Below, piece by piece: positions 17,015 through 31,048 of a DNA stretch of 64,000 nt (position 1 is the first letter of the stretch; every line of letters starts with the position of its first letter). Origin of the DNA: Paraburkholderia sp. SOS3 (GTDB lineage: Bacteria > Pseudomonadota > Gammaproteobacteria > Burkholderiales > Burkholderiaceae). A program made the position numbers and the translations under genes. Below the pieces are notes generated by a model. It did not search any database. It saw only the letters and a list, made by a program, of their open reading frames with translations, and was not told the origin of the DNA. The stretch covers positions 2,914,001 through 2,978,000 of the forward strand of contig NZ_CP018812.1 of assembly GCF_001922345.1 (NCBI RefSeq), in the 5' to 3' direction.

Positions 17015-17718
17015 GATTGCTTCTCCTTCGCCTCGCGGGCGATGCGGTTGACTTGTCGCGTAATAGCGCCCTTCAGCTGCACCAGCTTCGCAAGCTCCGG
17101 GTCTTTGGAGCGAGGATGATTGCGCCGGGCCATCTCAGCACGGTGGACGAGCTCGAGGGCATCGATGGTGATTTTCTCGACGTCGGTACTGAAACGACCT
17201 TCGCGAAAGCACACCACGTATCCGTCCGGTATCGGACCATTTGCCTGTTCCCAGACGATGCGGTGAACGCCGGTCCATCTTTGAGCGGGAACGATCGACG
17301 GATCGTCCGTCACCGTTCGGCACAGATAGCCGTCTTTCACCTTTTCGGTTCCGATCGGAACGTAATTTCGAGCATCAGCCGCCGGGCGCCCCTTCTTGTA
17401 CTGCGCCTTTCGGCAATTAGGATGGGTTCCAGTAAGTCCCTTCGTACCCTTGCTCCACGGCACATGTCCTGACTGGAATCTCGTCCCGGCACCACGACCA
17501 TCGCCAGTGCGACCGGAGTCGTTGCCGACGTAAAACGCCTCGCTCTTCGATAGCCCGAGCTTCTTGGCACGCTTATAAATTTGCGTGACATGCAGCTTCA
17601 GATCATCGGCAATTGCCTGCGCGCGCTCGTCCGGATAGCGGCTCGTCAGGACTGCGTCTTCCTCCGGTGTCCAGACATGTCTGTACCGCTGCGTCGAACC
17701 GGGTTTTCGCTTCGTCAT
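17011..17718 (-). CDS. HNH-type endonuclease with N-terminal helix-turn-helix
   Basis: 235 residues. The N-terminus (HVWTPEEDAVLTSRYPDE, IYKRAKKLGLSKSE) is a Myb-like DNA-binding module. The centre has the intron-type HNH features GYLCRTV, GVHRIVWEQANGPIPDGYVV and a C-terminal NHPRSKDPELAKLVQLKGAI common in phage HNH proteins. The start overlaps the reverse transcriptase stop as ATGA. It may be a selfish homing nuclease or a DNA-metabolism enzyme; being coupled to a retroelement it could also nick target DNA, which is speculation. Confidence 0.75.
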   Translation of the reverse strand: MTKRKPGSTQRYRHVWTPEEDAVLTSRYPDERAQAIADDLKLHVTQIYKRAKKLGLSKSEAFYVGNDSGRTGDGRGAGTRFQSGHVPWSKGTKGLTGTHPNCRKAQYKKGRPAADARNYVPIGTEKVKDGYLCRTVTDDPSIVPAQRWTGVHRIVWEQANGPIPDGYVVCFREGRFSTDVEKITIDALELVHRAEMARRNHPRSKDPELAKLVQLKGAITRQVNRIAREAKEKQS

Positions 17719-19067
17719 GATCTCGTGCCTCGGTAGGTCTTCGTGAGACCGTGGTTCACCGCATGCCCGCGGCCCCGCACCACATTCGCGAGCCGCGCGC
17801 GATCGTGATGACTGGCCGGTGCTTGCCCGTACAGACCGAAGTAGCTATTCGCCATAACGTGCACGTCAACGGCCGGCGCGTTCGCGACGCGCCGCACGCC
17901 TTCATTCACCGTGCGCCGCCGCGTCGACCGGCGCCACGGCTTGATGACGTGGCCGACAAAATCGACGCCGCGCTCGATCGGCTGCAGGATCGTCTTGTGT
18001 TCGTTCAGACGCACGCAGAGGCGTGCCAGCAGAAAGGCTGCAATGTCGGCGTGCGCGGCATTGAGCCAGTCGGGCGACTCGTGCAGGAACACGAAGTCGT
18101 CGACGTAGCGAACGTAGTGCCGCGCGCGCACGATGTGTTTCGCGCGCTGGTCGAGCGCGTCGAGGTAGACGTTCGCGAAGAACTGCGACGACAGATTGCC
18201 GATCGGCAGCCCAAGGTGCGCCGGCTGGTTCATGAGCCGCTTGTGCGCCGGCACGAGGTCGATCGATGCCGGGTCGCCGCGGAATTCGAAGTCGGTGCGT
18301 GGATCGTGCATCAGCACGGCGCCGGTCAGCCATTGCCAGAACGGATCGCTGATCTTCGCGAGCAGCAGCTCGGACAGAACGGTTTTGTCGATGCTCACGA
18401 AGAAGTTCGCGAGATCGCACTTCAGGTAATGAGCCGGGCGCGTCCAGTTCTGCGTGATCGAGCGGATCTTCGCCTCGAGTCGCTGCGCTGCGTACAGCGT
18501 GCCGCGCTCCTTGATGCATGCGCACGAGTCGGCAACGAAGCTGCGCTCGAACCGCGGGCCTATGCGGTTGTACAGCAGGTGATGCACGACGCGATCGCGA
18601 AAATCGGCTGCCCATACCTCGCGCGCTTTCGGTCGCGTGATGACAAAGCAGATCGACCGGCCGGGACGATACGAGCCGTCGAGCAGTTCGTCGTACAGGT
18701 CGCGCAGGTTGTGTTCCAGATTCGCTTCGAACGCAAGCGCGCTGGCCTTGTTCCGTTTGGTGCGTCGACAGTCGACATACGCTTCGACCAGTTCGACGAA
18801 ATGAAACGCCTGATCTCCATTTTTCCAATCTGCGGACGGCCACGGCGCGAAGCTTGTTGTTCTTGTCGTTGTAGTTCTGGTTGCCGTTGTTGAAGTTCTG
18901 ATACCAGGCGTAGCCGGATATATCGCACTATCTACGTCGCCCGATCGATTGCTCAATTGGGAAACTGCGCTGGACCGGTCCGCACGCCGGCGGACGGTAT
19001 CCTCAATGCGCATGTCGGTGGCCTCGTGAGCCAGCGGTGCGACCAGATTGAAAGATCGCTCAGCCAT
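17715..19067 (-). CDS. DGR reverse transcriptase
   Basis: This is the enzyme of a diversity-generating retroelement: it copies the template-repeat RNA into adenine-mutagenised cDNA that replaces variable repeats. Motifs: DRVVHHLLYNRIGPRFE, catalytic aspartate in LKCDLANFFVSID, LPIGNLSSQFFANVYL carrying the DGR-specific [IVL]GxxxSQ signature instead of QGxxxSP, and YVRYVDDFVFLH with the YVDD active site. The frame is open from 19085. An ATG at 19067 overlaps the avd stop (ATGGCTGA). The RT fold starts only after the TR (from about 18825), where no ATG, GTG or TTG lies in frame. So the protein may begin upstream and read through the TR, or use an unusual start. Confidence 0.93.
   Translation of the reverse strand: MAERSFNLVAPLAHEATDMRIEDTVRRRADRSSAVSQLSNRSGDVDSAIYPATPGIRTSTTATRTTTTRTTSFAPWPSADWKNGDQAFHFVELVEAYVDCRRTKRNKASALAFEANLEHNLRDLYDELLDGSYRPGRSICFVITRPKAREVWAADFRDRVVHHLLYNRIGPRFERSFVADSCACIKERGTLYAAQRLEAKIRSITQNWTRPAHYLKCDLANFFVSIDKTVLSELLLAKISDPFWQWLTGAVLMHDPRTDFEFRGDPASIDLVPAHKRLMNQPAHLGLPIGNLSSQFFANVYLDALDQRAKHIVRARHYVRYVDDFVFLHESPDWLNAAHADIAAFLLARLCVRLNEHKTILQPIERGVDFVGHVIKPWRRSTRRRTVNEGVRRVANAPAVDVHVMANSYFGLYGQAPASHHDRARLANVVRGRGHAVNHGLTKTYRGTRS
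18827..18918 (-). repeat. DGR template repeat (TR)
   Basis: A 91-92 base repeat between avd and the RT domain. On the minus strand it is adenine-rich: in the frame used by the target genes it contains eight AAC codons (segments such as QNFNNGNQNYND). About 30 bases at its 3' side (AAGCTTCGCGCCGTGG onward to CGCAGATT) are nearly invariant in all copies and correspond to the IMH region where reverse transcription into the VR starts. Every difference from the three VRs falls on a TR adenine. Confidence 0.95.
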
Positions 19068-19437
19068 GGGAGCCTTGACCTCCATGGAGCGGGCGATTGC
19101 TTGCAGCCTTCTTCCATCCGGTGGCCTGCTTGCCGATGCTCGTGGTCAGTTCGACCGCGCGAGCGTAGGAACCCTTGTCGACCTTGCGCTTGTTGAAACC
19201 GAGCCGAAGCAGCAGGTTGATCACCTGCAGGCGCTCGATGAGCTCGGTCAGATGCGGCGATTTGTCCGTCGCAACATTCGCGCGATATACGAGCACGATG
19301 ATCTCGATGCACTCTAGATTAATCTTCTCGCCGATCGACCGCTTGAAGTCCCGCTGCATGTTCGTGACGACATCTGTCACGACATCCAGCAGGTCTTCTG
19401 CGGCGCGGTAGATCGGCAGTTGGGTGTGCAGGGCCAC
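19060..19437 (-). CDS. avd: Avd-like accessory variability determinant
   Basis: The 125-residue protein has the helical make-up of DGR Avd proteins (four-helix bundle, S23-like): YRAAEDLLDVVTDVVTNMQR, then RSIGEKINLECIEIIVLVYR, LTELIERLQVINLLLRLGFN and a basic tail with KQATGWKKAASNR. Family members form pentamers that bind the RT and template RNA and are needed for mutagenic cDNA synthesis. It starts with GTG 16 bases after the VR1 gene stop and overlaps the RT frame, the usual target-avd-TR-RT order. Confidence 0.9.
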   Translation of the reverse strand: MALHTQLPIYRAAEDLLDVVTDVVTNMQRDFKRSIGEKINLECIEIIVLVYRANVATDKSPHLTELIERLQVINLLLRLGFNKRKVDKGSYARAVELTTSIGKQATGWKKAASNRPLHGGQGSHG

Positions 19438-19442
19438 GATGG

Positions 19443-19458
19443 ATTTAAATCGTTAAAT
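19443..19458. repeat. Small AT-rich hairpin downstream of VR1
   Basis: ATTTAA and TTAAAT flank the four-base loop ATCG, 14 bases beyond the VR1 3' end and overlapping the stop codon. Bordetella phage DGRs need a short hairpin just after the IMH for efficient retrohoming. This one is in the right place but weak, so its role is a guess. Confidence 0.35.
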
Positions 19459-19914
19459 TACTGAAGGAATAAATCTGCGGACGGCCACGGCGCGAAGCTC
19501 GCAGTCCTTGCCGTCGTAGCCCTGGCCGCCGCTGGTGAAGTACTGAAACCAGGCGGAGCCGGAATTGGATTCGTACTGCTCACCGGACCAGTACCAGGCC
19601 GATGCGAAAGCACTCTTGACGTTTGCGAACAGGAGCGACTGCTCGCGCCGCGTCGGCAGGTCGCCGCCCTGCTCGATGGCCCACTCGCGTGCCGCTTCCC
19701 ACTGAACCGACTCTTTCTCGCCGGGTAGCAGGATCAGGTAGTGCGCGAGGCTGCCGTCGTCGTTCAGCACGGCGCCGGCGAAGCGCTCACCCGACGCGAG
19801 CGGAATCGCGGCCGCGGGGACGCGGTATTCGGTCGTCGCCTGCTTTTCGAAGGTGGCGATCATTTCGGCTACCTTCGCGTGCGCCGATTTGATCGCTTCA
19901 AGCGTGATCGTCAT
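19453..19914 (-). CDS. DGR target protein 1 (DUF1566-like, variable C-terminus)
   Basis: 153 residues. The N-terminal helix (TLEAIKSAHAKVAEMIATFE) is followed by a DUF1566/formylglycine-enzyme-like C-type-lectin fold: LASGERFAGAVLNDDGS, GGDLPTRREQSLLFANVK, WYWSGEQY and the variable end WFQYFTSGGQGYDGKDCEL before the constant RAVAVRR. The last ~30 codons are VR1. The frame extends upstream, but ATG 19914 with GGAGC is the natural start. There is no signal peptide or membrane segment, so it is cytoplasmic or virion-associated. The ligand is unknown. Confidence 0.88.
   Translation of the reverse strand: MTITLEAIKSAHAKVAEMIATFEKQATTEYRVPAAAIPLASGERFAGAVLNDDGSLAHYLILLPGEKESVQWEAAREWAIEQGGDLPTRREQSLLFANVKSAFASAWYWSGEQYESNSGSAWFQYFTSGGQGYDGKDCELRAVAVRRFIPSVI
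19472..19563 (-). repeat. DGR variable repeat VR1
   Basis: A 91-base copy of the TR at the 3' end of target gene 1. It differs at 15 positions; all 15 are adenines in the TR (minus strand), changed to G, C or T. Flanking and IMH bases are identical. Codons hit include most AAC sites, giving Y, T, S, G, G, D, D and C in place of asparagine. Confidence 0.95.
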
Positions 19915-19943
19915 GCGATGCTCCGTTGAAAATGGATGAAGGG

Positions 19944-20303
19944 TTAAATCGACAATCTGCGGACGGCCACGGCGCGAAGCTCGAGGTCCTTGCCGCCGCA
20001 GGTCTGGCCGCCGGTGCCGAAGCCCTGACACCAGGCGTAGCCGGAATCCCACTCGACGTCATCGTCGGTCCAGTACCACTCCGGCTTCACGAGCGCGCGA
20101 TGCTCGTTGTAGATGACGAGAGCGTCGAAGCGGTTGAACAGCACGCCGCCGACACTCTTTGCCCATTCGCGCTGTAGCTCGCGCGGCAGGCGCTCATCGT
20201 TCACGGCTACCAGCACCGTGTGCTCGACGTCACCGGTCTTGCTGACGCGGCCGTGCAGATAGACTTCGCCCTCGGCAAGCGGCGGAATTTGAATCTGTTG
20301 CAT
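19944..20303 (-). CDS. DGR target protein 2 (short DUF1566-like)
   Basis: 119 residues: LAEGEVYLHGRVSKTGDVEH, VAVNDERLPRELQREWAKS, VLFNRFDALVIYNEHRA, then PEWYWTDDDVEWDSGYAW and the variable end QGFGTGGQTCGGKDLEL before RAVAVRR. It is a shorter version of the same lectin-like module. AGGAGA precedes the ATG by seven bases. It lies directly upstream of target gene 1 in the same transcript. No secretion signal. Two cysteines arise only within the variable part. Confidence 0.87.
   Translation of the reverse strand: MQQIQIPPLAEGEVYLHGRVSKTGDVEHTVLVAVNDERLPRELQREWAKSVGGVLFNRFDALVIYNEHRALVKPEWYWTDDDVEWDSGYAWCQGFGTGGQTCGGKDLELRAVAVRRLSI
19954..20045 (-). repeat. DGR variable repeat VR2
   Basis: A 91-base TR copy ending target gene 2. 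It has 17 substitutions relative to the TR, all at TR adenines, and the adjacent IMH bases are unchanged. This is the most diverged of the three VRs. Confidence 0.95.
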
Positions 20304-20464
20304 GTGTTCTCCTGAAAAAGCAGGGCGCTGAATAAAGCCGCCCCATCAAAACCGGCGCTCAGAAAACGCCGGCGGGAGTGATTCGAAAAAGCGGGCGTCA
20401 TGTGGACCGCCCTTCCACAAGCGCCGCGGCTACGGGGAGCGCCGCGACGGACCACACAACCCTG

Positions 20465-21145
20465 CTAACGGGGCCGCCATTCGCTGCCGCGAATTACCCG
20501 ACCCACCGGCTCAAGCACCAGCACCTCAGATTCCTTTTCCGAGCGGATCAGCGCACTCGCGCGCTTCTGCGCCTTGTCGAGCGAGCCGTGACGCTTCGGC
20601 TTCGCGTAACGTCCGACCGTCACGAACAGCGGCGACTTCGCGCCGATCGGACCCAGCGTCAGTTCGTCGATGCGCAGTTCGAGCGCCCTGGTGTTCTGGG
20701 TCAGCTTCGCGACATCGCTCTTCAGCGAGTCGTTCTCGACCTTCAGTTCGTCTCGATCGGTTTCGGCCTGCAGTCGCGCGCTCGACATTTCGTGGTACCG
20801 AGTGGTCAGGTCAGTAAGCTGATTCGTCAATGCGGCGACCTGGCGCTCGAGGGCGGCGCGCGCGTCCGGTTGCGCAGCAGCGGGCGGCGACGCGGGGGGC
20901 AGCGCGGGCGCAGCTGGCGCAGCAGTCGTCACGGCAGCGGTCGCCGGCGTGCGCTCGGCACGCGAGAGCCAGTAGTGGTACTCGTTGCCGGCGCCCTGCC
21001 TCTTCTCGCGCTCGACCACACCATCGTTAAGCATGTGATTGAGTTCGCGCGCGACGTCGAGCTGCGGCAGGCCGAGCTTGTGCGAGATCGTCTTCGCGGT
21101 GGACTGCTGCACAGTGCTGAGGTACTTCTCGATATCTGCTCTCAC
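20465..21145 (-). CDS. Hypothetical phage protein, winged helix plus coiled coil
   Basis: 226 residues. The N-terminus (RADIEKYLSTVQQSTAKTI, GLPQLDVARELNHMLNDG) resembles a winged helix-turn-helix. An Ala/Pro-rich linker (about 65-95) leads to a coiled coil (ALERQVAALTNQLTDLTTRY, DELKVENDSLKSDVAKL). The C-terminus has a basic patch (KPKRHGSLDKAQKRA). It may be a DNA-binding structural protein; no family is assigned. The 160 bases between it and target gene 2 hold inverted GC-rich stretches but no gene I can support. Confidence 0.7.
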   Translation of the reverse strand: MRADIEKYLSTVQQSTAKTISHKLGLPQLDVARELNHMLNDGVVEREKRQGAGNEYHYWLSRAERTPATAAVTTAAPAAPALPPASPPAAAQPDARAALERQVAALTNQLTDLTTRYHEMSSARLQAETDRDELKVENDSLKSDVAKLTQNTRALELRIDELTLGPIGAKSPLFVTVGRYAKPKRHGSLDKAQKRASALIRSEKESEVLVLEPVGRVIRGSEWRPR

Positions 21146-21172
21146 GTTCGTATGCTCCTGCGCGAGGTTGGG

Positions 21173-21844
21173 TTACTGCGCGTCGTCGCCTTGCTCTTCG
21201 TGCCAGCGCTTCCAGCCCTTCACCCACTCGATGCACAGCGCGCCGGCCATGACGGGGCAATCGCTCTGCGGCTTGCCATCGGCTGCCGCGTCGAAGCCCG
21301 CTTGTTCGGCCGCTTCGAGCTCCTCTTGCAACGGCTGGTGTTCGATCTGCCGCACATCGCCCGGGCCCGCGTCTACGACATCGCCGGTCGGCCCATTCAT
21401 GCCGTCACCGTCCTCGGACGTGTATTCCTGGCCGAGGTCGAGGCCGCGTTGATCGCCTTCGCCCCTCACTTCATCCATGCCGGCGGTGTGGTCAGCGGAG
21501 CTCGCTACAACCACCAGCACCGCCTTGCTTTGCGCGTCATACAGCTCGTGCAACGAAGGTGCGTTCGCACCGAACTTGATGACCGCCTTAACGCCATCCT
21601 TGATGGTGATCTGATCGAGGTCACCCGCCACCACCGTGCGACCCGCGCTGGCCAGCGTGTGAACGGCCATCGCGATGTTCGATTGCACGCGTGCACGCAG
21701 GCGATCGATGACGTCGTTCTGCTTGGCCTCGGACAGCTTCGCCCAGACGTCGGGCAACAGCTTCAGTTCAAGCACGAGCGCCTGCAGAAGATCTCGACCG
21801 ATCGTGTCGGCGGTCATGGCGCGGAAGTCTTGCGGTGCATTCAT
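21173..21844 (-). CDS. Phage protein with C-terminal ribosome-modulation-factor-like module
   Basis: 223 residues. The helical N-terminal half (ELKLLPDVWAKLSEAKQNDV) is typical of small phage early proteins. The last ~45 residues (EAAEQAGFDAAADGKPQSD then CPVMAGALCIEWVKGWKRW) match the pattern of ribosome modulation factor: small residues, a CP pair and a WxxGW motif. If functional, it could act on ribosomes or RNA during infection. The link to Rmf is by pattern only. Confidence 0.65.
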   Translation of the reverse strand: MNAPQDFRAMTADTIGRDLLQALVLELKLLPDVWAKLSEAKQNDVIDRLRARVQSNIAMAVHTLASAGRTVVAGDLDQITIKDGVKAVIKFGANAPSLHELYDAQSKAVLVVVASSADHTAGMDEVRGEGDQRGLDLGQEYTSEDGDGMNGPTGDVVDAGPGDVRQIEHQPLQEELEAAEQAGFDAAADGKPQSDCPVMAGALCIEWVKGWKRWHEEQGDDAQ

Positions 21845-21880
21845 CAGGGTTCATCAGGTGGTGGCGGGGTCAGGGATTCT

Positions 21881-22501
21881 TCAGGCAGCTTTACCGGCGG
21901 TCGCCTGCTTGATGCCGTAGTACACGGCCTTGCAAGCCTCGAGATCGACCGCGGCGTTGTGCGCACCCTCGAGCTTCTTGCCGGTGAAGTACTCGTACGC
22001 TTCGCCGAGGTTCGGCGACTTCGCATGCTTGCGGCCCGCGGCGAGCATCTTCGCGGTGGGCGGCAGATTGAGGATCTTCGTGCAACGCCCTTGCGTGCAG
22101 AAGGCTTGCCCCCCCTTCCACTGGTCGTGGAACGGATCGTCGTGATCGAGTTGCCGGAAGTACTCGATGCGCAGCATGCGGGCATCGAAAGACTCGTTGT
22201 GCGCGACGCGCATGCCGGCGCGGCGCCACATCTCCGTGAACTGCCGCAGCGCATCCGAAATCGGCACACCTTCGAGCGTCGCCCGCTCGGTCGTGATGCC
22301 AGTAAGCGCCGCGAGATCGTCGGGGATCGTCCAGCCATCCGGCGAGATCAGCACGTCCATCGCGGCTATCGTGTTGCCGCTGCGCTCGTCGCACAGGTGC
22401 GCGGCGAGTTGCGTGACGTGCGGCTGCGACGGATCTTCGGACGGCAGATTCCACTGCGGCAGACCGTTCGTTTCCGTGTCGTAGAAGAGGATGAGTTCCA
22501 T
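21881..22501 (-). CDS. DnaQ-like 3'-5' exonuclease (DEDDh)
   Basis: 206 residues with the exonuclease I motif FYDTETNGLPQ, the exo II AHNESFDARMLRIEY and the exo III EGAHNAAVDLEACKAVYYG, which together supply the DEDDh acidic residues and histidine. It degrades single-stranded DNA or RNA ends. It lies next to the SMC-like ATPase and RecT-like gene, so it probably takes part in phage recombination. Confidence 0.88.
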   Translation of the reverse strand: MELILFYDTETNGLPQWNLPSEDPSQPHVTQLAAHLCDERSGNTIAAMDVLISPDGWTIPDDLAALTGITTERATLEGVPISDALRQFTEMWRRAGMRVAHNESFDARMLRIEYFRQLDHDDPFHDQWKGGQAFCTQGRCTKILNLPPTAKMLAAGRKHAKSPNLGEAYEYFTGKKLEGAHNAAVDLEACKAVYYGIKQATAGKAA

Positions 22502-22531
22502 GAATTGTTCCGTTCGTGGTTGGTGGGACGC

Positions 22532-24343
22532 TCAGGCGGCCTGGGCGAAGCGAGCGGCGTGCAACTCGCCCTTCTCGATCCAGTGCGCGCGTGTGGTGGA
22601 CGGCAGGCCTTCGGGTGCCTTCTTCAGCGTGCCGAATACAAGCGCCGTCGCGATCTCGTTCTGCGAGGCCATGTCGTCGAGCAGTTCGAGCAGATCGCCG
22701 CGGCCCTTCAGGTCCAGCACGTCGAAGCGGTCGAAGAAAACGATGCGCGACTCCGACAGCACCGCGATCGTCAGTGCGATCAGCGCGTCGACGCGGTACC
22801 GCTCGGACTCGCTCAGCAACGAATAGAGGCGGCCGCCGGCGCGGATTGTCATATCGGTGTCGAGCATGGGCACGGCCCACTGCGCGAACGCAGCGAGTTC
22901 GGCGAGACGGTTATTGATCGGCGCAAGCGCCTGCGCGAGCATGTCACCCGGGATGCCATCCGGCGACAGCGCAGCGGCGATGTCGAGCCATTGCGTGATG
23001 TCGGCGTGGTGCTTCGCGGCAGTCTGCGTTTTGCTGTCGGCAGCGTCGGCCGCGAGCTTCGCGTTGTTCAGCCGATCCAGCTCGGTGCGCAGAGAATCGC
23101 GTTGCGCTGTCGATGCGGACACGCTCGTACGCGCTGCGGTCAGTTGCTCATCGGTCACTGCTTCGACGTCGGACTTCAACTTCAGCGCTTCCGACGCAGC
23201 GAGAGCGGCGGCGAGATCGCGCTCGTCGTTCTCGACCGAGCGCTTCATCAGGTCGCGCGCCTTGACGAGTTCGGGCAGCTGGGCGCGCGCGTCGGCATCG
23301 CCGCCGGTGCCCGGCTCTCCATGCTGATCAACGTAAGCGGCGTAGGCTCGCTCGACGGTCGACAGGTCGTAATCGCTCCACGGCCTGATTGCACCGGTCA
23401 CACGCTGCACGAGGCTCTCCGCGTCAGCAATGATCACGGTGAACTCGCGTACCGCAGCAGCCAGATCGTGAACGAGGCCTTCGCGCGGCGCGTCGCCGGC
23501 ACGCTGCTGCGCATCGAGCAGGCGCGCCTCCGCGTCGGCGAGGTTCTGCTTGTCAGTCGCGAGCTTTGCTTCGATGCGCGTCACGCCTTTCGCCAGTTCG
23601 GCGCTGCGCTCGGCGGATTCGCGCGACGCGGCGTAGGCGCGGTGTTTTTCCTGCAGCGCGCCCAGGTCCTTATTTGCCTTCGCGATACGGCTCTCGACGG
23701 CGGTCATCTGCTGAGTTACCTCAGCGTGCCGCGCTGCATCGAACAGAGGCACCTCGGCCTCCCAATCGGCGGCCTTGTCCTTACCCCACTGTTCATTGGT
23801 CACGGCCTTCCATGCGCCCTTCGACTCGCGCGCTTCGTCCTCGGCGAACTTCACGGCGGCCGGGAAGCCTGACCGCAGCATCGGCAGCACCTTCTCGACC
23901 TTCGCCGCGTCGCACTTGCGCTCAGCGAGCAGACCCTTCACCTTCTCGGGTGTCGCGCGCAGGCCCGTCAGTTCGAACAGGAACGTGCGCCGATCGTCGG
24001 CCTTCATTTGCGCGAACCGCTCCGGGTTGAGCAGGTACGGCAGCGCGCCGGTGTACACGGTGAGGCCCACATGCTTGGCGTCGGGCAACGTGAGGTTCGC
24101 CGGACCGACATCCAGATCCAGCGACACGATCGACTTCTTCGCACCGTCGGTCACCATCGACGGGTATTCCTTCTTCAGCGCGACGCGCGAAATGTCACCG
24201 GTCAGCGCTGCGCAGATGGCCTCGCGCAGGCTGCTCTTCCCCGCGCCGTTCGGGCCCGCGAAGATGGTGACCGGCGTGTCCACTTCGATGTCCACAGCGC
24301 GCGCGCCGAGGAAACTCTTTACGGTGATGTGCTGGATCTGCAT
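22532..24343 (-). CDS. SMC/SbcC-like ATPase (AAA_23)
   Basis: 603 residues. Walker A is FAGPNGAGKSSLREAIC (about residue 28). A long charged coiled-coil region runs from about 170 to 480. The C-terminal ABC half has LLSESERYRVDALIALTIAV (signature) and ESRIVFFDRFDVLD (Walker B). Such proteins work with a nuclease to process DNA ends. The neighbours are a DnaQ-like nuclease and RecT-like annealing protein, so a phage end-processing complex is likely. Confidence 0.87.
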   Translation of the reverse strand: MQIQHITVKSFLGARAVDIEVDTPVTIFAGPNGAGKSSLREAICAALTGDISRVALKKEYPSMVTDGAKKSIVSLDLDVGPANLTLPDAKHVGLTVYTGALPYLLNPERFAQMKADDRRTFLFELTGLRATPEKVKGLLAERKCDAAKVEKVLPMLRSGFPAAVKFAEDEARESKGAWKAVTNEQWGKDKAADWEAEVPLFDAARHAEVTQQMTAVESRIAKANKDLGALQEKHRAYAASRESAERSAELAKGVTRIEAKLATDKQNLADAEARLLDAQQRAGDAPREGLVHDLAAAVREFTVIIADAESLVQRVTGAIRPWSDYDLSTVERAYAAYVDQHGEPGTGGDADARAQLPELVKARDLMKRSVENDERDLAAALAASEALKLKSDVEAVTDEQLTAARTSVSASTAQRDSLRTELDRLNNAKLAADAADSKTQTAAKHHADITQWLDIAAALSPDGIPGDMLAQALAPINNRLAELAAFAQWAVPMLDTDMTIRAGGRLYSLLSESERYRVDALIALTIAVLSESRIVFFDRFDVLDLKGRGDLLELLDDMASQNEIATALVFGTLKKAPEGLPSTTRAHWIEKGELHAARFAQAA

Positions 24344-24442
24344 GTCAGTCTCTATGGATTGGGGCGGGACTCACCGGGCGGCGGCGTAGATCAACGCGCG
24401 GCGGCTACATACGCCGCGGCTGCCCGGGAGCCCCATTGACGG

Positions 24443-25696
24443 TTACTCGACGCTCGGCGCGGATCCGCGCGATGCGCGGCGGCCGGCGCGCTCGAACTTC
24501 TGGCGCAGCGTTGATGCGAGCTCGGTGAGCCGCTGTTCGGCGTCCGGATCGGGTACGTCAGCGATCAGTGCGATGGCGGCGTTCAGCTCGTCGCTGCTGT
24601 TCGCTGCGTTCAGGCGCGCGGAGATCTCCGATTCGGGGAGCGGACCTGACTTCGAAGCGGTCTGCGCGGGCGCCGCGCTCTGACCATCCGGGCCGGTCGT
24701 TTCGCCCTGCTCGGTGCCCTGGTGATGGTGTTGAGCCTGCTGATCCATCTGCTCGACATTCGCTGCTGGCGCATCAGCTTGTCGCGATGTCTCGGCTTGC
24801 GCGGCCCGGTCGGCTGCCGGCGACACGCTTGCGCGGCGCAGCGTGTCAATGTCGGCGGCGTAGGTGCCGTCCGGCTGCTTCGTGACATCGATAATGTCGA
24901 GCTCTTCTTCCGACGTGCGTCCCATGCCCATCACGATGTCCGGCGCGTGGATGTTGCCGAAGAAGCTACCGGCGCGGTACTGGAACATCAGGGCGCGCAA
25001 TTCCGTTTGCCACTTGGACCCAGGCTTGCCGTACCACCCTTCCTCGACAGCCATCTTCATCGTGACGGGCGCAGATTCGACGACGGGCATGCCGAGGGAG
25101 CGGTACAGGTCCAGCAGGCGGTTCGGGTACTGACGCAGCATGTCCGGCGTCAAATGCGGCTCGGGAACGCCCTTCGGCAACGCCCACGCGATGCACTCGA
25201 TGTCGTCGACCTCGACCTCGCGCTCAGCGAAGATCGGTCGCCGCGCTTCTTTATCCCAGCCGGTCTTTTCCTTGTATGTCGCCTTGATGCGGCCGCGGTT
25301 GATCGCCTGGAAGCGCAACGGTGTAAAGCGGCCTGACGCATTGATGGCGGCGATCACGAACTTGCCCGACCAGCGCAGCTTGCCTTCGATCGGGTCGGCG
25401 TTTTGCATGACCGCGGTGATCGACATGCGGACTGCCCGCGCGACTTCGATAGCAACCAGGCAATTACCGACCGCCGCCGGGTTCTCGACCCAATGCTCTT
25501 CGTTACCGACCCTCTTCAGGTTGTGCGAGCGAAACTGCGCCGGCACGGCGTCGCTGCTCGCATACGCCTTGGCAATCCGGTTTGCGAGCACGAAGCCGCG
25601 CTCGGTGAACATGTCGACCGCGACGTCAGCAGCGACAACCGCCTGCGGTCCTTGCGCGACGTCAGACAACGCGCGCGCCTGTGTAGGTGCGTTCAT
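24443..25696 (-). CDS. RecT-like single-strand annealing protein
   Basis: 417 residues. The core (CLVAIEVARAVRMSITAVMQN, GKLRWSGKFVIAAINAS, VTMKMAVEEGWYGKPGSKW, ELRALMFQYRAGSFF) matches RecT-family annealing proteins. The C-terminal third is a low-complexity Gln/Pro/Ala linker and a small helical tail. With the PD-(D/E)XK exonuclease one gene away it forms a RecET-type recombination pair. The start overlaps the HNH gene stop by four bases. Confidence 0.85.
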   Translation of the reverse strand: MNAPTQARALSDVAQGPQAVVAADVAVDMFTERGFVLANRIAKAYASSDAVPAQFRSHNLKRVGNEEHWVENPAAVGNCLVAIEVARAVRMSITAVMQNADPIEGKLRWSGKFVIAAINASGRFTPLRFQAINRGRIKATYKEKTGWDKEARRPIFAEREVEVDDIECIAWALPKGVPEPHLTPDMLRQYPNRLLDLYRSLGMPVVESAPVTMKMAVEEGWYGKPGSKWQTELRALMFQYRAGSFFGNIHAPDIVMGMGRTSEEELDIIDVTKQPDGTYAADIDTLRRASVSPAADRAAQAETSRQADAPAANVEQMDQQAQHHHQGTEQGETTGPDGQSAAPAQTASKSGPLPESEISARLNAANSSDELNAAIALIADVPDPDAEQRLTELASTLRQKFERAGRRASRGSAPSVE

Positions 25697-26154
25697 TTGT
25701 TACCCCTTTGTTTGTTTCGGTAATCCGCTTCGACCTGGCTCCAGTACGGATGCCGGCGCATGCGGGCATGCAATTCCATGTGGTACGTATGCGTACAGAT
25801 CACGAGATTCGTGTTGCCGTTGTCGCCACCGTCAAAATTCACGTGATGTACGTCTTCGCTACGCTTGAGTGGGCGACCGAGCGCCTTCTCGGCGATAACG
25901 CGATGCTCCAACTGCTTCGCGCGGTTCCCGCGTTGAACCAGATAGCCATCCTTCCGCTGCCTCGTGCCGCCCTTGAACTGGTGATTAAGCTGGCCAGCGC
26001 CAGCGCCCCGCGGGCGGCGCGGAACACCCATCCGGATCAGGGCGCGCCGCACGTCTTCGTCGTCCAGACCCATCTCGGACGCGATTTGATTCAGGGAGCT
26101 ACCCGCGAGGTAGGCTTCGCGCACCATGTCGTAGTCGAATTCTTTGCGTTTCAT
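25693..26154 (-). CDS. HNH endonuclease
   Basis: 153 residues. The N-terminal helix-turn-helix (REAYLAGSSLNQIASEMGLD) is followed by an HNH core with HRVIAEKALGRPLKRSEDVH, a H-N pair in VHHVNFDGGDNGNTNLVIC and a final HMELHARM. The genes on either side make a recombinase pair, so this may be an inserted homing-type nuclease, though overlaps with the RecT-like gene show it is well integrated in the operon. Start at ATG 26154. Confidence 0.82.
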   Translation of the reverse strand: MKRKEFDYDMVREAYLAGSSLNQIASEMGLDDEDVRRALIRMGVPRRPRGAGAGQLNHQFKGGTRQRKDGYLVQRGNRAKQLEHRVIAEKALGRPLKRSEDVHHVNFDGGDNGNTNLVICTHTYHMELHARMRRHPYWSQVEADYRNKQRGNK

Positions 26155-26159
26155 GGTGG

Positions 26160-26960
26160 TCACTCGTGATAGATGCAGGTGGACCATCTAGAGCAATACG
26201 ACTTGCTACAAAGCGGACTACTTGGGTTGGGCGGGAAAAGACCGGCCTTGAACATGTCGGCGGCCAACTGGATGAGGCCCGGTGTCTCTTCGTTACCGAT
26301 CAGCACGCGGCGCGCGTCGAAGATCGGGCTCACGGCGACCGGCGTCTTGGACGTCGTGCCGAGGCCGATGATCTGCGCGCCCGCCGTGCGCTCGCCGGTC
26401 GTCTGCTCGTACATGAGCTGATAGGTACCGGTCTGTGCCGAGCGCGACTTGATGTTCGCCTCGCCGTTCGTCACGACGCGGGCACCGGTCTTCACGTCAG
26501 GAATGATCGTGCCGTCGACGCCCTTCGCGACGCGCGCGCGGTCCATCGTGCCGGTGAGCGTGATCGTCGTGCCGCCGCCGCAATCGATCTGCAGGGGCTC
26601 GAGCGGCATTTCGACGGCCGTGTATGTGAACTGCGGCGCGACCTCGGTGCAGTACTTCGTGGTCAGCGTCAGGCCGATGCGCTCCGCCTCCGCGAACTTG
26701 ATGTTGTCGTTCGAGAAATCGACGTCGTATTCCGGGTGGTGCAGCGTGTCGACGAACGCGCCTGCAGCATCGTCCGGCGTGATCTCGCTGCCGTTCAGGC
26801 GCGCCGAGTCGAACGCGGCGGTACCGGCGTGCACGCTCGTGCCGAGCAGCGCGCGCAGGCCTGCAGGCTTGCGCTTGCCGAGCAGATGTTCAGCCTCCCA
26901 GGCATAGGCGCAGTCGAAGAATTTGCCGAACGACGAGGCGCGGATGCGAAGATCGCTCAC
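26160..26960 (-). CDS. PD-(D/E)XK exonuclease (RecB/Cas4-like)
   Basis: 266 residues. LLGTSVHAG gives the GxxxH motif, GTMDRAR and IPDVKTGAR give the D-(D/E)xK active site, and QTGTYQLMYEQTTG is the QxxxY motif. A cysteine at FFDCAY and a cysteine-rich C-terminus (LCSKSYCSRWSTCIYHE) could form an iron-sulphur cluster as in Cas4 and AddB. It should resect DNA ends for the RecT-like protein. GTG start overlapping the upstream small gene as GTGA. Confidence 0.87.
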   Translation of the reverse strand: MSDLRIRASSFGKFFDCAYAWEAEHLLGKRKPAGLRALLGTSVHAGTAAFDSARLNGSEITPDDAAGAFVDTLHHPEYDVDFSNDNIKFAEAERIGLTLTTKYCTEVAPQFTYTAVEMPLEPLQIDCGGGTTITLTGTMDRARVAKGVDGTIIPDVKTGARVVTNGEANIKSRSAQTGTYQLMYEQTTGERTAGAQIIGLGTTSKTPVAVSPIFDARRVLIGNEETPGLIQLAADMFKAGLFPPNPSSPLCSKSYCSRWSTCIYHE

Positions 26961-27118
26961 GTTGCGCTCCTCGATGCCATCAGCTGCAGGCGCAGCGCCG
27001 TGTCGTTGTCGCTATCCGCGCCGGCCGCCGCGTAGAGGCATGCCGCGCAAGCAGCAATCATCAGCGCGGCCGCGATGCGCGGATGCTTCGCGTAGAAGCG
27101 GTCGAATGCACGAATCAC
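26957..27118 (-). CDS. Small membrane protein (53 aa)
   Basis: A GTG at 27118, preceded by a G-rich GGGGGTG and overlapping the upstream stop, begins a 53-residue protein with a basic N-terminus and one hydrophobic helix (IAAALMIAACAACLYAAAG). The stop overlaps the exonuclease start by four bases. The chain of overlaps supports it; the function is unknown. Confidence 0.6.
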   Translation of the reverse strand: MIRAFDRFYAKHPRIAAALMIAACAACLYAAAGADSDNDTALRLQLMASRSAT

Positions 27119-27336
27119 CGCACACCCCCGACGTTCGTGTACGTGAACACGCGGGAGATCTCTTCCGGCACGTAGCCGGTCGAGATCGGCGTGCGAGGCG
27201 CAACTCCCTGACGGCTCAGTGCTGCTTTTGCGTCGCGCTGCCGACGCGCCGTGCGGGCGCAAAGCGCTTCGTGCTTGAGCTCGAGTACGCGATCGCGAGT
27301 AATGCCGGTCGGACGTCGACGAAAAATGGTCAGCAT
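27115..27336 (-). CDS. Small hypothetical phage protein
   Basis: 73 residues, very basic at the start (LTIFRRRPTGITRDRVLELK) with KHEALCARTARRQRDAKAA. AGGGGA precedes the ATG at 27336. The stop overlaps the following GTG start. No family recognised. Confidence 0.6.
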   Translation of the reverse strand: MLTIFRRRPTGITRDRVLELKHEALCARTARRQRDAKAALSRQGVAPRTPISTGYVPEEISRVFTYTNVGGVR

Positions 27337-27575
27337 GCTGATCCCCTGTAGAGCAACAAAAACACGATGCAGACAAGCGCGCCGAACAACGAACCGGTGA
27401 GCAATCCGCACTTATGCTCGAGCGCGCGCCACTGGTCTTCGGTAAGCGGTTCTTTCCGAATCGGCTCGCGCTCGATTCCACGCACACGGCGCAACGCGAA
27501 GCCAACGAGCTTGCGACACGTCCACTTGAGCGACGGTGTGCGCGTGATGTTCGCGAGGAAGACCGGGCGTCGCAC
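27330..27575 (-). CDS. Small protein with C-terminal membrane helix
   Basis: 81 residues from a GTG at 27575 that has GAGGAAG upstream. A basic N-terminal part is followed by LTEDQWRALEHKCG and a hydrophobic segment LLTGSLFGALVCIVFLLLY. It is probably a small inner-membrane protein. Longer starts would run into the preceding gene. Confidence 0.6.
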   Translation of the reverse strand: MRRPVFLANITRTPSLKWTCRKLVGFALRRVRGIEREPIRKEPLTEDQWRALEHKCGLLTGSLFGALVCIVFLLLYRGSAC

Positions 27576-27576
27576 G

Positions 27577-27816
27577 TCAAGCTTCCTCGCGCTTTTCAAC
27601 GCACGGGACGCCCAGCTCAGCGCCATCGATGGGGCAGCGATTCACCCAGTCCTCGTGCACCACCGTGCGTCCAAAAGCGTCATCGCGACCGATGCCACCG
27701 TCGACGAAACTGCCGGCCACGTTGCATTCGCACGTTGGGCAGAAGCCGATACGACCGCGACGGATATATCGCGGACGTCTCACTTCATTCGGCATTTCGT
27801 CGTAGAGCACAACCAC
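27577..27816 (-). CDS. Small zinc-ribbon-like protein
   Basis: 79 residues. CPTCECNV and a later CPIDGAELGVPCVE suggest a treble-clef or zinc-ribbon module. GTG start at 27816 with AGGAGT eight bases upstream. It is the first gene to the left of a 530-base poorly coding stretch. The function is unknown. Confidence 0.6.
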   Translation of the reverse strand: MVVLYDEMPNEVRRPRYIRRGRIGFCPTCECNVAGSFVDGGIGRDDAFGRTVVHEDWVNRCPIDGAELGVPCVEKREEA

Positions 27817-28346
27817 AATGGACTCCTAAATTAGGACCGGCCTTCCACCGGTACGGCTTTCGCTCGCAGAGGTCGGATTTCGACATGCATCACGGACTTT
27901 CGCCGCTCTGCCGGAAACTGCACGCCTATTCCGGTCACTCCACGGCGCGGGACACTGTTCCCGCCCGCTTCTCACGGGCTGCGGCTTATAGTTGCTTAAA
28001 GCGGCCGTCGCTTCGTTGAGGCCCTCAAGGGTGGATGCCCAGCGCTCGCATAAGGCAGCGTTGTGACGCCATTCGTGGGGGTCCATCATTAGTGCAGCCG
28101 CGCCCACCGACTGCCGCCAGACACCCACACTTCAGGGCGCCGGTGCTCTCCCGGCTGTCAAGCCTCAATTGCAGGTCGGCTTTCACCTTCTTCACTTCAC
28201 ACTTGGGGCCGGCGGCTGCGCTTATGGTGCAAACCTCGCGAACCGGGGAGTCCCGCAGCCCTCTCCCCGCCCAAACCCTCGCCGTACTGCGCCCCTCTTC
28301 GCACGGGGTATGACGTCGACTCCTTCGGAGTCGAATAACTGAATGA
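27817..28346. other. 530-base stretch with no clear gene downstream of target gene 3
   Basis: All three minus-strand frames contain short peptide-like stretches (for example GCGTPRFARFAP, then KCEVKKVKADLQLRLDSRES in a second frame, then a MMDPHEWRHNAALCERW start in a third) but none has a good ribosome site and full-length support. GC-rich inverted segments are frequent. An 87-codon frame ending at 27826 is possible but weak. It may be a structured or regulatory RNA, or decayed genes. Confidence 0.4.
28316..28334. repeat. Perfect 8-bp hairpin 23 bases downstream of VR3
   Basis: TCGACTCC and GGAGTCGA flank a three-base loop. It lies just beyond the IMH end of VR3 on the minus strand. In Bordetella phage BPP-1, a short DNA hairpin at this position promotes target recognition by the DGR; the same role here is inference. 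It could also end the transcript, but no T-run follows. Confidence 0.6.
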
Positions 28347-28844
28347 CTAAATGAACAATCTGCGGACGGCCACGGCGCGAAGCTTGCTGAGCTCGTCGCC
28401 GTAGAGCTGGCCGCCGTTGCCGAAGAGCTGAAACCAGGCGTAGCCGGCCGTCTCCTGCGTGCTCGACCAGTACCAGTCCTTCTCGAACTTGTGCGGGATC
28501 GTCGCGTAGCAGAGGTTGAGCTCGCGCTGCGCCGGCAGATGGAAATCGGTGTGGCCGTCGGCCGAGTACTCGCTGGCCCACTTCGCCGCGGGATGCTCGG
28601 TCGTCGCAGCGAGCAACGCGCGCGTGTTCGCGGCGCCGTCGTAACGGCTGTCCGCACCCGGCACCTTGCTGCCGTAACCGCCGTACGCGACGTCTTCGAC
28701 ATCGGTCGCTGAAACGATCAGGTGATACGGACGCTGCCCGTCTTCGCCCGGCATGATGCCGGCGTAGATGCCGCCCTGACCGGGCCAGTACTCGCCAATG
28801 GCGGGCGCTGCGATCGCGACAGCGGCTTCGTTCACTGCATTCAT
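28347..28844 (-). CDS. DGR target protein 3 (DUF1566-like, remote target)
   Basis: 165 residues: EYWPGQGGIYAGIMPGEDG, RPYHLIVSATDVEDVAYGGY, FHLPAQRELNLCYATIPHKF, WYWSSTQETAGYAWF and the variable end QLFGNGGQLYGDELSKL before RAVAVRR. It shares the lectin-like module of targets 1 and 2 but has a different N-terminal part, so the genes are only partly related. AAAGG fits the ATG at 28844 better than the one at 28853. It is near the start of the leftward operon, 9.4 kb from the RT. No signal peptide. Confidence 0.88.
   Translation of the reverse strand: MNAVNEAAVAIAAPAIGEYWPGQGGIYAGIMPGEDGQRPYHLIVSATDVEDVAYGGYGSKVPGADSRYDGAANTRALLAATTEHPAAKWASEYSADGHTDFHLPAQRELNLCYATIPHKFEKDWYWSSTQETAGYAWFQLFGNGGQLYGDELSKLRAVAVRRLFI
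28357..28447 (-). repeat. DGR variable repeat VR3 (remote)
   Basis: A 91-base TR copy at the 3' end of target gene 3. There are 15 differences, all at TR adenines; the constant IMH bases are identical to the TR. This shows that the DGR has also written into a site far from its cassette. Confidence 0.95.
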
Positions 28845-28911
28845 GTCGTTCATCCTTTATTCGTTGCTGCGGTTTATCGGGTCCGGCGCCAGCTGGCACC
28901 GGTCAAGCTGC

Positions 28912-29759: not shown

Positions 29760-29800
29760 GTCCCGACTCCCGCGATGCGTTGTGTGCTGCCATGGACTTG

Positions 29801-29841
29801 ATTAAACACCATGTTTATAGCGATGTCAAACACCGTGTTTA
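29801..29841 (-). promoter_or_regulatory. Leftward early promoter with two overlapping operators
   Basis: On the minus strand, TTGACA (29824-29829), a 17-base spacer and TTTAAT (29801-29806) form a near-consensus sigma-70 promoter. Two related 15-base inverted repeats cover it: TAAACACCATGTTTA at 29803-29817 over the -10 and CAAACACCGTGTTTA at 29827-29841 over the -35. The same elements occur beside the cro-like gene, so the CI-like repressor should shut both promoters. This promoter would transcribe the recombination genes and the DGR. Confidence 0.8.
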
Positions 29842-29904
29842 ATTTCTACGTGGAAATTTGTAACAGGTGTTATGCGCATAGCATTCGCGTATGGGAAATG
29901 CCAC

Positions 29905-29954: not shown

Positions 29955-30971
29955 TCAGATCGGGCGCCACATGGACGCACGCGTGTAGGCGACGACGTAG
30001 TGCATTTTTTCGATTTCTTCCTGCGCGATCGCGACGGACGGGTGCGCTTCGTTGATCGAAACAAGGTGGATGCGGCCAGCTCGCTTGTAAAGGAATGTCT
30101 TGACCATCACGCGACCGTCGATCGACTTTACGAGCACATCGTCACCCGGCTCGGGTTCGTGGTTCGGCTCGATGATGACGAATTCGCCGTCACGAATGCG
30201 GGGGCGCATCGAATCGCCCACGCAGCGCAGCGCATAGGCGTCTGGGTCCCGCGAAGGGAAGTCAACATAGCCGTCCCCATGGCCGACCGGATACTCGAGA
30301 TCCGACCAGTGCCCGTTGTCCCCTAGCTGAGCCATTCCTAGTACCGGAATCGGTTTCCAATTTGTGATCGGGATAGGCCGGTATTCATCGGCGTAGCGGA
30401 CAGCTACGCCTGGGTCACCTTTGCCCTTTATTAGCCAAACCGCGTTCACGCCGTACGTTTTCTGAATGGCGACAGCCTGATCAAGCGTCAAAGTCTGGCC
30501 TTCGCCGGCAAGCCATTGAGAAGCGACCTCGAGGCCAACGCCAGAGACGCTTGCCAAAGTCTGCGCAGTGACGTTCTGCTCGGCGAGCACCGCTTTTAGA
30601 CGTTGTGGGGAAGTAAGTTTGGCTGCATCAAGGGTAGTGCTCGCGGCTTTTTCCGATTCCGCAATAACCGGCATGTTTAATACAGTGATTGCCGGATCAT
30701 CTTCGGTGGAAACGTGCTTCGCGCCGGCATCTACCATTTCGCCTTCGCCCGTGCGCAGCCACACGGCGCGGCACCCGATCACGCGCTCCGCTTCCAGCAT
30801 TCCGTCGGAAGACACGCCGCGGCCCATCCAGTTAGTCACTTTTTGCGGCGAGACATGAAGCAGGCGTGCGACCGCCGAAGGGCCCTCGGCGCCCTTCAGG
30901 GTTTTTGCGGCCTCGAGCAGACGCCCGGCGGTTGGATGGATTTCACGGCTGCGAGCATTCATGCGCGGCAT
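29955..30971 (-). CDS. CI/LexA-like phage repressor with two HTH units
   Basis: 338 residues. Two XRE-like units follow each other: one with VARLLHVSPQKVTNWMGRG ending AVWLRTGEGEM, the other with LASVSGVGLEVASQWLAGE ending AVWLIKGKGDP. The C-terminal half is an S24 (LexA-type) domain: the serine in CVGDSMRPRIRDGEF and the lysine in DGRVMVKTFLYK make the self-cleavage dyad. It should hold lysogeny by binding the TAAACA-type operators and be inactivated in the SOS response. ATG at 30971 or 30962; neither has a ribosome site, so the message may be nearly leaderless. Confidence 0.88.
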   Translation of the reverse strand: MPRMNARSREIHPTAGRLLEAAKTLKGAEGPSAVARLLHVSPQKVTNWMGRGVSSDGMLEAERVIGCRAVWLRTGEGEMVDAGAKHVSTEDDPAITVLNMPVIAESEKAASTTLDAAKLTSPQRLKAVLAEQNVTAQTLASVSGVGLEVASQWLAGEGQTLTLDQAVAIQKTYGVNAVWLIKGKGDPGVAVRYADEYRPIPITNWKPIPVLGMAQLGDNGHWSDLEYPVGHGDGYVDFPSRDPDAYALRCVGDSMRPRIRDGEFVIIEPNHEPEPGDDVLVKSIDGRVMVKTFLYKRAGRIHLVSINEAHPSVAIAQEEIEKMHYVVAYTRASMWRPI

Positions 30972-30982
30972 GGTTGCACAAG

Positions 30983-31038
30983 TAAACAAAATGTTGTTAC
31001 ACGCGGTGTTTGCTTTTCTTTTAAACATGGTGTTTAAT
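30983..31038 (+). promoter_or_regulatory. Rightward early promoter and operator triplet
   Basis: Three 15-base operator-like elements stand in a row: TAAACAAAATGTTGT (30983-30997, weak), TACACGCGGTGTTTG (30998-31012) and TAAACATGGTGTTTA (31022-31036). TTGCTT (31010-31015), a 17-base spacer and TTTAAT (31033-31038) form the rightward promoter, built like the leftward one. The +1 would fall about 31045, only a few bases before the cro start. The repressor promoter must lie on the other strand here. Confidence 0.75.
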
Positions 31039-31048
31039 CATGCTCACT

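Follow-up and report, generated by a model that had tools for sequence, protein, structure and literature searches.

Bordetella phage BPP-1 is the model for the start of cDNA synthesis in diversity-generating retroelements (DGRs). Its cassette consists of the target gene mtd, the accessory variability determinant (avd), the template repeat (TR) and the reverse transcriptase (RT) gene brt, in this order, and the spacer 3' of the TR is reported to recruit bRT-Avd and to prime cDNA synthesis (PMC12875486). The targets of viral DGRs in clades 1, 4 and 6 are described as mostly tail proteins (PMC8144416). DGRs with several variable repeats (VRs), the DiGReF 'group 3' and a TR overlapping the RT open reading frame (ORF) have already been published, and Burkholderia members are reported from B. 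thailandensis MSMB43 and B. glumae BGR1 (PMC3521204).

The stretch of DNA analyzed here (64,000 nt, called the window) comes from Paraburkholderia sp. SOS3 (contig NZ_CP018812.1, positions 2,914,001 to 2,978,000) and carries, within a prophage, a DGR with one TR and three VRs. It shares with the BPP-1 system (mtd-avd-TR-brt) the gene order, Avd, a DGR-type RT, the A-specific change from TR to VR and the location of the VR at the 3' end of the target. We estimate at roughly 70% the probability that the window holds a complete DGR whose template RNA is circularly permuted relative to that of BPP-1. The structured domain found after the TR in BPP-1 (the spacer, sp) would here have moved to a place before the TR, in the form of the Rfam RNA RT-15. 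The sequence evidence consists of the DGR parts, variation restricted to A, the lack of a 3' spacer, RT-15 abutting the TR, covariation in a long-range helix and a single RT clade.

Components of the retroelement

The cassette has the following parts (coordinates refer to the window):

18827-18918, minus strand: template repeat (TR), 28 A among 92 bases
19472-19563, minus strand: VR1, in target gene 1
19954-20045, minus strand: VR2, in target gene 2
28357-28447, minus strand: VR3, in target gene 3
17715..19067, minus strand: RT gene (PHROG 1423, Pfam RVT_1, 8ub7 by sequence), predicted start
19060..19437, minus strand: avd, 125 aa (PHROG 3206, Pfam bAvd)
18916..19098, minus strand: RT-15 RNA (Rfam RF03018), structured 5' leader, 166 bits, E 2e-41
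19044..19053, minus strand: 5' strand of the putative long-range helix, UUUCAAUCUG (complementarity, covariation, minimum free energy (MFE) fold)
18823..18832, minus strand: 3' strand of the putative long-range helix, CAGAUUGGAA (last 6 nt of the TR and 4 nt of the RT frame)
19453..19914, minus strand: target gene 1, 153 aa from the first ATG
19944..20303, minus strand: target gene 2, 119 aa, no family match of note
28347..28853, minus strand: target gene 3, 168 aa
28316..28334, minus strand: 8-bp hairpin 3' of VR3 (stem search)

An RT, Avd, a TR and three VRs had been claimed in a preliminary description of this locus, and all of them are present on the minus strand where it placed them. A repeat finder recovers the same four copies (TR and three VRs). 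All three VRs lie at the 3' ends of genes, again as claimed, and end 16 (VR1), 7 (VR2) and 7 (VR3) bases before the stop codons. In the alignment of the window repeats, which the description had proposed, VR1, VR2 and VR3 differ from the TR at 15, 17 and 15 positions. All 47 of these mismatches in the trimmed cores fall on TR adenines, which are 28 of the 92 TR bases; one extra T>G is found on the base immediately outside the VR3 core. At least one VR differs from the TR at 21 of the 28 adenines. These changes touch 14 codons, eight of which are AAC, and simple counting from the variable TR adenine codons gives about 10^12 possible protein variants per target.

The 26-base 3' end is identical in the TR and the VRs. 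Allowing up to three mismatches, it occurs four times in the 7.5-Mb genome, each time exactly and each time in the window, while a reversed-pattern control had no occurrence in the same genome. There is thus one TR with three VRs and no fourth target with that 3' end. Stem-loops after the VRs are less regular. VR3 is followed by the 8-bp hairpin and VR1 by a stem of 6 bp made of A/T only, and none was found after VR2 in the stem-loop search of the window. Stems of at least 8 bp follow the VR in 5 of 73 kin rows, two of which are the same locus under two ids (L024 and L057), compared with 0.3% in shuffled sequences and 1.4% in an upstream control.

The RT matches PHROG 1423 with E 2.5e-108 (364.6 bits). 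The RT families of PADLOC (70, the best at 119.5 bits) were set aside as weaker than this match. The closest solved relative by sequence is 8ub7, 'Reverse transcriptase', of 328 aa, which is the length of BPP-1 brt. Avd matches PHROG 3206 (E 5.7e-28) and is above the cut-off for Pfam bAvd and below that for NCBIfam NF033474; a sequence search of solved structures gave zero matches for it.

Related loci and evidence for activity

This RT was found at E≤1e-40 in 17 of 144 genomes of the genus, and nine phage records match it at 60–80% identity; no plasmid record does so at E≤1e-50. The kin set also includes 12 viral contigs and two genome contigs, one of the viral contigs being, in this region, the same as one of the genome contigs. 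Three loci with broken RTs and no usable TR/VR set (L043, L044 and L045) were dropped from all TR/VR counts, and the copies L037 and L057 were left out of the 31-locus counts and of the helix test described below. The DGRs used for comparison are 23 of 44 matching phage records plus BPP-1, which is not a survey of all DGRs.

The 31 loci give 70 TR/VR pairs. Differences are not spread over all four TR bases in these relatives, since 839 of the 859 mismatches are at A. Two VRs were found in 21 loci, three in nine and one in a single locus on a short contig. A search for the same cassette with different VRs, suggested in the preliminary description, was successful, and the differences are again concentrated at TR adenines. 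In comparisons between kin, 52.7% of the TR-A sites they share differ in the nearest VRs vs 0.3% of shared non-A sites (229 locus pairs, which are not independent), in agreement with the earlier claim of a recently active element. For Burkholderia phage Magia and phage vB_Sb_QDWS, whose RT genes are 90.5% identical at the DNA level, the nearest VR differs at 12 of 26 A and at 0 of 61 other sites.

The genome G119 has two prophage copies (L036 and L037, 140 kb apart), which were considered as a natural test of activity and rejected as uninformative on recent turnover; they are identical over 5104 bp including VR1, and the second copy yielded no second VR. Their identical VR1, together with the broken RTs of three relatives, would fit a cassette that is an inactive relic. 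This is very unlikely for the window, where there are zero non-A differences between the TR and any VR core and where the RT, avd and target frames are all open; the Magia/QDWS differences at A alone (12/26 vs 0/61) also argue against it. We infer that the lineage has been active recently and may be so today.

A structured RNA on the 5' side of the template repeat

Between avd and the TR the window has a match to the full-length RF03018 model, at 166 bits vs a curated threshold of 82 bits. The first 39 nt of the RNA overlap the 3' end of avd, and its 3' edge abuts the TR. The Rfam entry says only 'RT-15 RNA, Gene; sRNA'. A distance of only a few bases between the RT-15 3' end and the TR start was also seen in six of six kin and in two of two Pseudomonas phages, one of which has RT-15 annotated in its record. 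The same Rfam scan found RT-15 in 0 of 13 DGR loci outside the RT-15 clade. Within the genus, RT-15 is above the cut-off in 15 of the 144 genomes, all among the 17 with this RT; the two RT-bearing genomes without RT-15 have broken RTs, and so has G022, one of the 15. Four further genomes of the genus have matches far below the cut-off, and in 369 genomes of the class, scanned with stricter filters, only the window's genome was returned. The G022 locus (L045, RT-15 at G022:C15:338156-338347) is a decayed DGR with a broken RT frame, yet it has the highest RT-15 score in the genus, 187 bits.

The 141 bases between the avd stop and the TR are highly conserved among kin. Over 129 nt of this leader in 19 kin, the mean pairwise differences at the three codon positions are 0.123, 0.149 and 0.148 (permutation P 0.84); the corresponding values for RT coding downstream of the TR are 0.171, 0.134 and 0.484. 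The last 40 avd codons, which are coding, also lack periodicity (P 0.64, ungapped test). This speaks against taking the flat profile as a mark of RNA, and the codon-position test alone is therefore no proof of one; the RT-15 match and covariation carry more weight here. In the same test avd's own frame had the highest synonymous fraction. Analysis with RNAalifold gave a leader structure with changes on both sides at 22 of 42 pairs, and a recount gave 26 of 47 pairs vs 8.5 in shuffles.

A locus with the target-avd-TR-RT order of BPP-1, where the 3' spacer recruits RT-Avd and primes the cDNA (PMC12875486), might also be an ordinary DGR of the BPP-1 type. The 3' scaffold would then lie within the RT coding sequence and RT-15 would be a by-product or a minor accessory. 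Yet RF03022 (Phage_DGR) was not detected near the window TR at E≤1, and the same scan of BPP-1 places RF03022 between the TR and brt and finds no RT-15 there. Moreover, coding just after the TR is free at third positions (0.484), the first codons vary in length, and RT-15 adjoins the TR in nine of nine clade loci scanned, the window included. We consider the ordinary arrangement decidedly unlikely and propose that RT-15 is the 5' part of the DGR template RNA, joined by a helix to the TR 3' end.

Another Rfam family, RT-14 (RF02921), was seen in Bacillus phage BalMu-1 (L068, 2810-2953), where it lies 3' of the TR (2693-2812). BPP-1 has RF03022 in this place, which makes RT-14 a probable further spacer RNA of DGRs.

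A putative helix between the leader and the 3' end of the template repeat

The leader has a near-invariant AUCUG, and the TR terminates in CAGAU. Extended outward into the RT frame, these two motifs would form a helix of about 10 bp (19044-19053/18823-18832) that could bring the RT-15 domain beside the start point of the cDNA. Positions 6-10 of the helix vary among kin and were followed in 33 loci (31 distinct), in a register chosen after inspecting the sequences. At these positions 113 of 155 cells are paired vs 87.2 ± 4.5 with permuted partners (0 of 20000 permutations as high). Position 7 is C-G in 19, G-C in eight, A-U in one and U-G in one of the 31 loci. The paired fraction at positions 4-10 is 0.80 in this register and no more than 0.59 when it is slid. 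In a MAFFT alignment 85.5% of helix cells are paired vs 78.5 in shuffles (0/500) and at most 48.7 after sliding, and the covariation score is 0.179 vs 0.088 in shuffles (0/500). Double changes on one branch number four at position 9 vs 1.06 expected (P 0.005), and three of these are still paired. The helix is also part of the unconstrained MFE fold of the window RNA alone.

Other results weigh against the helix. Two of five helix measures are matched by shuffles (double-change pairs in 70/500, further pair types in 20/500). One-branch double changes are few; positions 6, 8 and 10 are not significant, and of the three at position 7 (0.72 expected, P 0.02) only one is paired. In register, L031 pairs at none of positions 6-10 and L055 at one of five. 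In a free search the longest 5'-3' complement exceeds shuffles in few single loci, and folds of the whole RNA are not more stable than shuffles (z 0.18, 0.63, 0.42 and -0.86). Counted by branches, the sequence support for the helix is modest. The 3' flanks of the VRs pair with the leader at 170 of 350 cells vs 122 of 165 for the TR, and this weaker pairing could help to discriminate the TR from the VRs.

RT phylogeny and the side of the RNA

The 19 RT-15 rows group together in the RT tree (support 100/100), and with four rows of a Bacteroides group they make up a clade of 23 (support 100/100). Three further RTs from the genus, presumed though not classified as group II, fall outside (support 100/100). 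The RT thus groups with RTs that bear a TR and VRs, as expected from the preliminary description. The three RTs that fall outside are the outgroup proteins kept from eight genus RVT_1 proteins, the other five having no tblastn alignment. The tree contains no retron or DRT RTs, its two F2-like rows are near-identical, and long branches elsewhere make other placements unsure.

The distance from the TR end to RT residue 1 follows the tree. The window has 7 nt here. The distance ranges from -9 to +21 nt across 31 RT-15 loci, with 2-4 and 20 nt in two others, and is 9-43 nt in the Bacteroides group (F2, F4, BS-TP1, scaffold_1689, L104 and L106; the TR of L104 was recovered only as two pieces). All 15 DGRs from outside the clade of 23 have 123-308 nt. 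The distance from the avd stop to the TR is 141 nt in the window, 172-173 nt in two kin and 68-128 nt in five Bacteroides-group loci, and it is 0-37 nt in 11 outside DGRs with an annotated or presumed avd. A single switch of side would explain the RT tree.

A helix in the same place, 39-42 nt past the avd stop, can be drawn for members of the Bacteroides group as GTTATCTG/CAGATAAC in F2 and TTCCGTAA/TTACGGAA in L105 and L106. The complement in L100 is 9 bp long and closer to the avd stop, with mixed statistics (P 0.01 and 0.14), and the one in L098 is only 6 bp and unconvincing (P 0.46). A search for related loci with the L100 RT found nothing. Several points tell against extending the RT-15 arrangement to this group. 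No Rfam family matches it, and the RNA on the 5' side may therefore be of a kind other than RT-15; the helix is absent from the L106 MFE and the L100 centroid folds; and the Fisher combined P is 0.012 over four loci, among them the unconvincing L098 and the mixed L100. L105 was left out of the combined P, as no VR was detected on its short contig and its TR end was set by motif.

The reading frame through RT-15 and the template repeat

RT homology spans 17715-18818, and the listed open frame (17715-19085) passes straight through the TR. The RT probably starts at an ATG (19067) overlapping the avd stop, and the frame from it would cross RT-15 and the TR. No ATG, GTG or TTG is found between the TR start and RT residue 35 in the window, nor in 6 of 32 other rows. 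For this reason translation of the RT probably begins at the ATG by the avd stop and continues across RT-15 and the TR. Speaking against such read-through as a general rule, L059 and L061 have an RT frame that is closed just before the TR and an ATG 19 nt after it, so it is not universal in the clade. Magia and QDWS are without an ATG at the avd stop, and the frame upstream of the TR is not maintained in L027, L042 and L052 (translations inspected by eye). The openness of the upstream frame in kin was rejected as evidence of coding: column shuffles have a mean of 0.03 stops and are stop-free in 96.8% of cases, which makes it uninformative.

Leaders that control translation, of the attenuator or coupling type, are common. 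RT-15 might be one of them, a regulatory leader for RT translation with no templating role, given its overlap with the avd stop and with the probable RT start, which has a Shine-Dalgarno-like GGAGG. We regard this as unlikely. The 3' edge of RT-15 coincides with the edge of the TR, the helix terminates on the TR 3' junction and not on the start site, and the upstream RT frame is lost in L027, L042 and L052 and closed in L059 and L061. If RT-15 is part of the template RNA, as we propose, ribosomes crossing RT-15 and the TR would unfold the template. Translation and template use may then compete, which might act as a brake.

Prophage setting and target proteins

The genes around the cassette include:

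12415..13479, minus strand: integrase, at the downstream end of the leftward operon (PHROG 1, E 6.7e-46)
22532..26960, minus strand: SbcC-like ATPase, RecT-like protein, HNH-like ORF and exonuclease, between targets 2 and 3 (PHROG)
25693-26187, minus strand: HNH-like ORF (by eye)
29955..31028, minus strand: CI-like repressor, upstream of target 3 (PHROG 4, E 5.3e-41)

Along the minus strand, target 3 is followed by the recombination genes, targets 2 and 1, avd, the TR and the RT, target 3 being located about 8 kb upstream of target 2. A PHROG scan of 20 chosen ORFs also placed HNH and DNA polymerase exonuclease subunit genes on this strand, and helicase, terminase, portal, tail sheath, tail protein and baseplate genes on the plus strand; 5 of the 20 ORFs had no match or matched only families of unknown function on the late side. 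The preliminary description had assigned the DGR to a prophage early region. With the integrase, RecT/exonuclease and CI-like repressor genes on the same strand and the tail genes opposite, this assignment holds. Judging from the layout, the DGR sits in the leftward early/lysogeny operon of a temperate tailed prophage, outside the tail module, and this operon resembles the leftward early operon of lambda.

An inverted repeat of 44 nt, 80% complementary, flanks the CI-like gene (29799-29842 and 30997-31040), and both of its arms contain AAACACC..GTGTTTAA palindromes, which are likely operators. A tRNA-Met gene lies on the plus strand at 41424-41497, about 1 kb ahead of the terminase gene.

Targets 1 and 3 have matches to Lcl_C (C-type-lectin-like) below the cut-off and target 2 has none. 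Targets 1 and 3 also match PHROG 4245, of unknown function (E 3.3e-33 for target 3). Target 1 has 1026 relatives at E≤0.001, and among the 120 listed many of the named ones are DUF1566; target 3 has 246 relatives, of which 120 are listed. The only solved structure matched by sequence is 8q4e, 'HbP1', which covers the C-terminal 65 residues of targets 1 and 3 (E 0.0064 and 1.6e-8, respectively). A simple hydropathy scan found no N-terminal hydrophobic stretch in targets 1 and 2.

A tail-fibre role of the targets is disfavoured by their place and strand, and they may instead be variable intracellular binders that act in early infection or lysogeny, a suggestion from sequence for which we see the chances as evenly balanced. 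It is weakened by the Ala-rich N-terminal stretch of target 3 (mean 1.40 over 15 aa), which could be a signal sequence. As viral DGR targets of clades 1, 4 and 6 are described as mostly tail proteins (PMC8144416), the three proteins might be virion proteins, i.e. receptor binders encoded away from the tail module. This seems doubtful for proteins of 119-168 aa that match no tail family. Their genes and the tail genes are on opposite strands, the region from integrase to repressor in which they are found also holds the RecT/exonuclease genes, and Magia has the same layout. An integrase was found in the fetched stretch of four of five RT-15 phage records (Magia, QDWS, Haboob and LPPA56); for the fifth, Cruim01, there was none within 3 kb. 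Outside the clade, 11 of 15 fetched DGR stretches name a tail, virion, structural or tropism gene (XkdT counted). The layout raises the question of how a temperate phage benefits from diversity in three small proteins encoded outside its tail module.

A working model

In retrons a structured 5' RNA, the template and the RT follow one another in that order, and the 5' and 3' ends of the RNA are paired. For the window we suggest that the leftward transcript folds so that the helix holds RT-15 beside the 3' end of the TR. Base pairs would thus keep the scaffold where BPP-1 has it covalently bonded to the TR 3' end. RT-15 may then bind RT-Avd and set the start of the cDNA. RT-Avd would copy the TR, misincorporating at A, and the cDNA would home to any of the three VRs through the shared 3' end. 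By such adenine-specific mutagenic retrohoming a single template could diversify three small, possibly C-type-lectin-like proteins, which might be made inside the cell, in early infection or in the lysogen, for variable binding. As retrons use a comparable layout, one guess is that a 2'-OH of the 5' leader serves as primer. It is tentative, and in our view rather less than probable, that the whole clade of proteobacterial and Bacteroides phages has a 5' scaffold, a helix to the TR 3' end and priming from the leader in the fashion of retrons. If true, DGRs would have two priming solutions with one type of enzyme, and RT-15 members would diversify small intracellular early proteins and not tail fibres.

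Comparison with known systems

The preliminary description had likened the locus to BPP-1. The likeness stands for the gene order (target, avd, TR, RT); it fails for the anatomy of the RNA, which lies 5' and not 3' of the TR, and for the location of the targets. In BPP-1 avd adjoins the TR (0 nt) and 144 nt with RF03022 separate the TR from brt, whereas the window has 141 nt with RT-15 before the TR and no spacer after it. BPP-1 has one tail target, the window three targets in the early region. A stem-loop lies 3' of the VR in BPP-1, and nothing comparable follows two of the three window VRs. Also unlike BPP-1, the TR and VRs of the window have their identical 26-base 3' end.

The same RNA layout with two proximal targets is found in Burkholderia phage Magia (NC_070954) and in vB_Sb_QDWS, with RTs that are 74.5 and 74.6% identical to that of the window, respectively; they differ from the window in their sequences and VRs. 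Magia also has a third, distal VR on the repressor side, and its gene order is that of the window: integrase, RT, Avd, two targets, AAA ATPase, RecT, exonuclease and a distal target near the repressor. The Magia gene gp46 (L025, 32316-32780), called hypothetical, contains a VR. The possible targets given in the record are gp47 and gp57 only. 'Shewanella' phage vB_Sb_QDWS (L026) and 'Hujiaoplasma' phage zrk29-1 (OP650936) have equal length (47,902) and equal RT identity. The QDWS cassette is 88% DNA-identical over 2.6 kb to that of Magia, and at least one of the host labels is doubtful.

Multi-target DGRs, Burkholderia members and the Magia annotation are thus already known, and the unusual part is the RNA layout. 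For DiGReF group 3 and the multi-VR DGRs, the available portion of the published account gives neither the RNA structure nor the side of the spacer (PMC3521204). Literature searches of titles and abstracts recognized no DGR class with a scaffold RNA 5' of the TR, nor the helix, and a prior description is possible. A natural clade without the 3' spacer and with another RNA on the opposite side would offer a direct way to ask what RT-Avd requires of its RNA, and the Rfam family RT-15 gains a concrete candidate role. Unlike retrons, the window has an RT, Avd, TR/VR and targets of the DGR type, and its likeness to retrons is one of analogy only.

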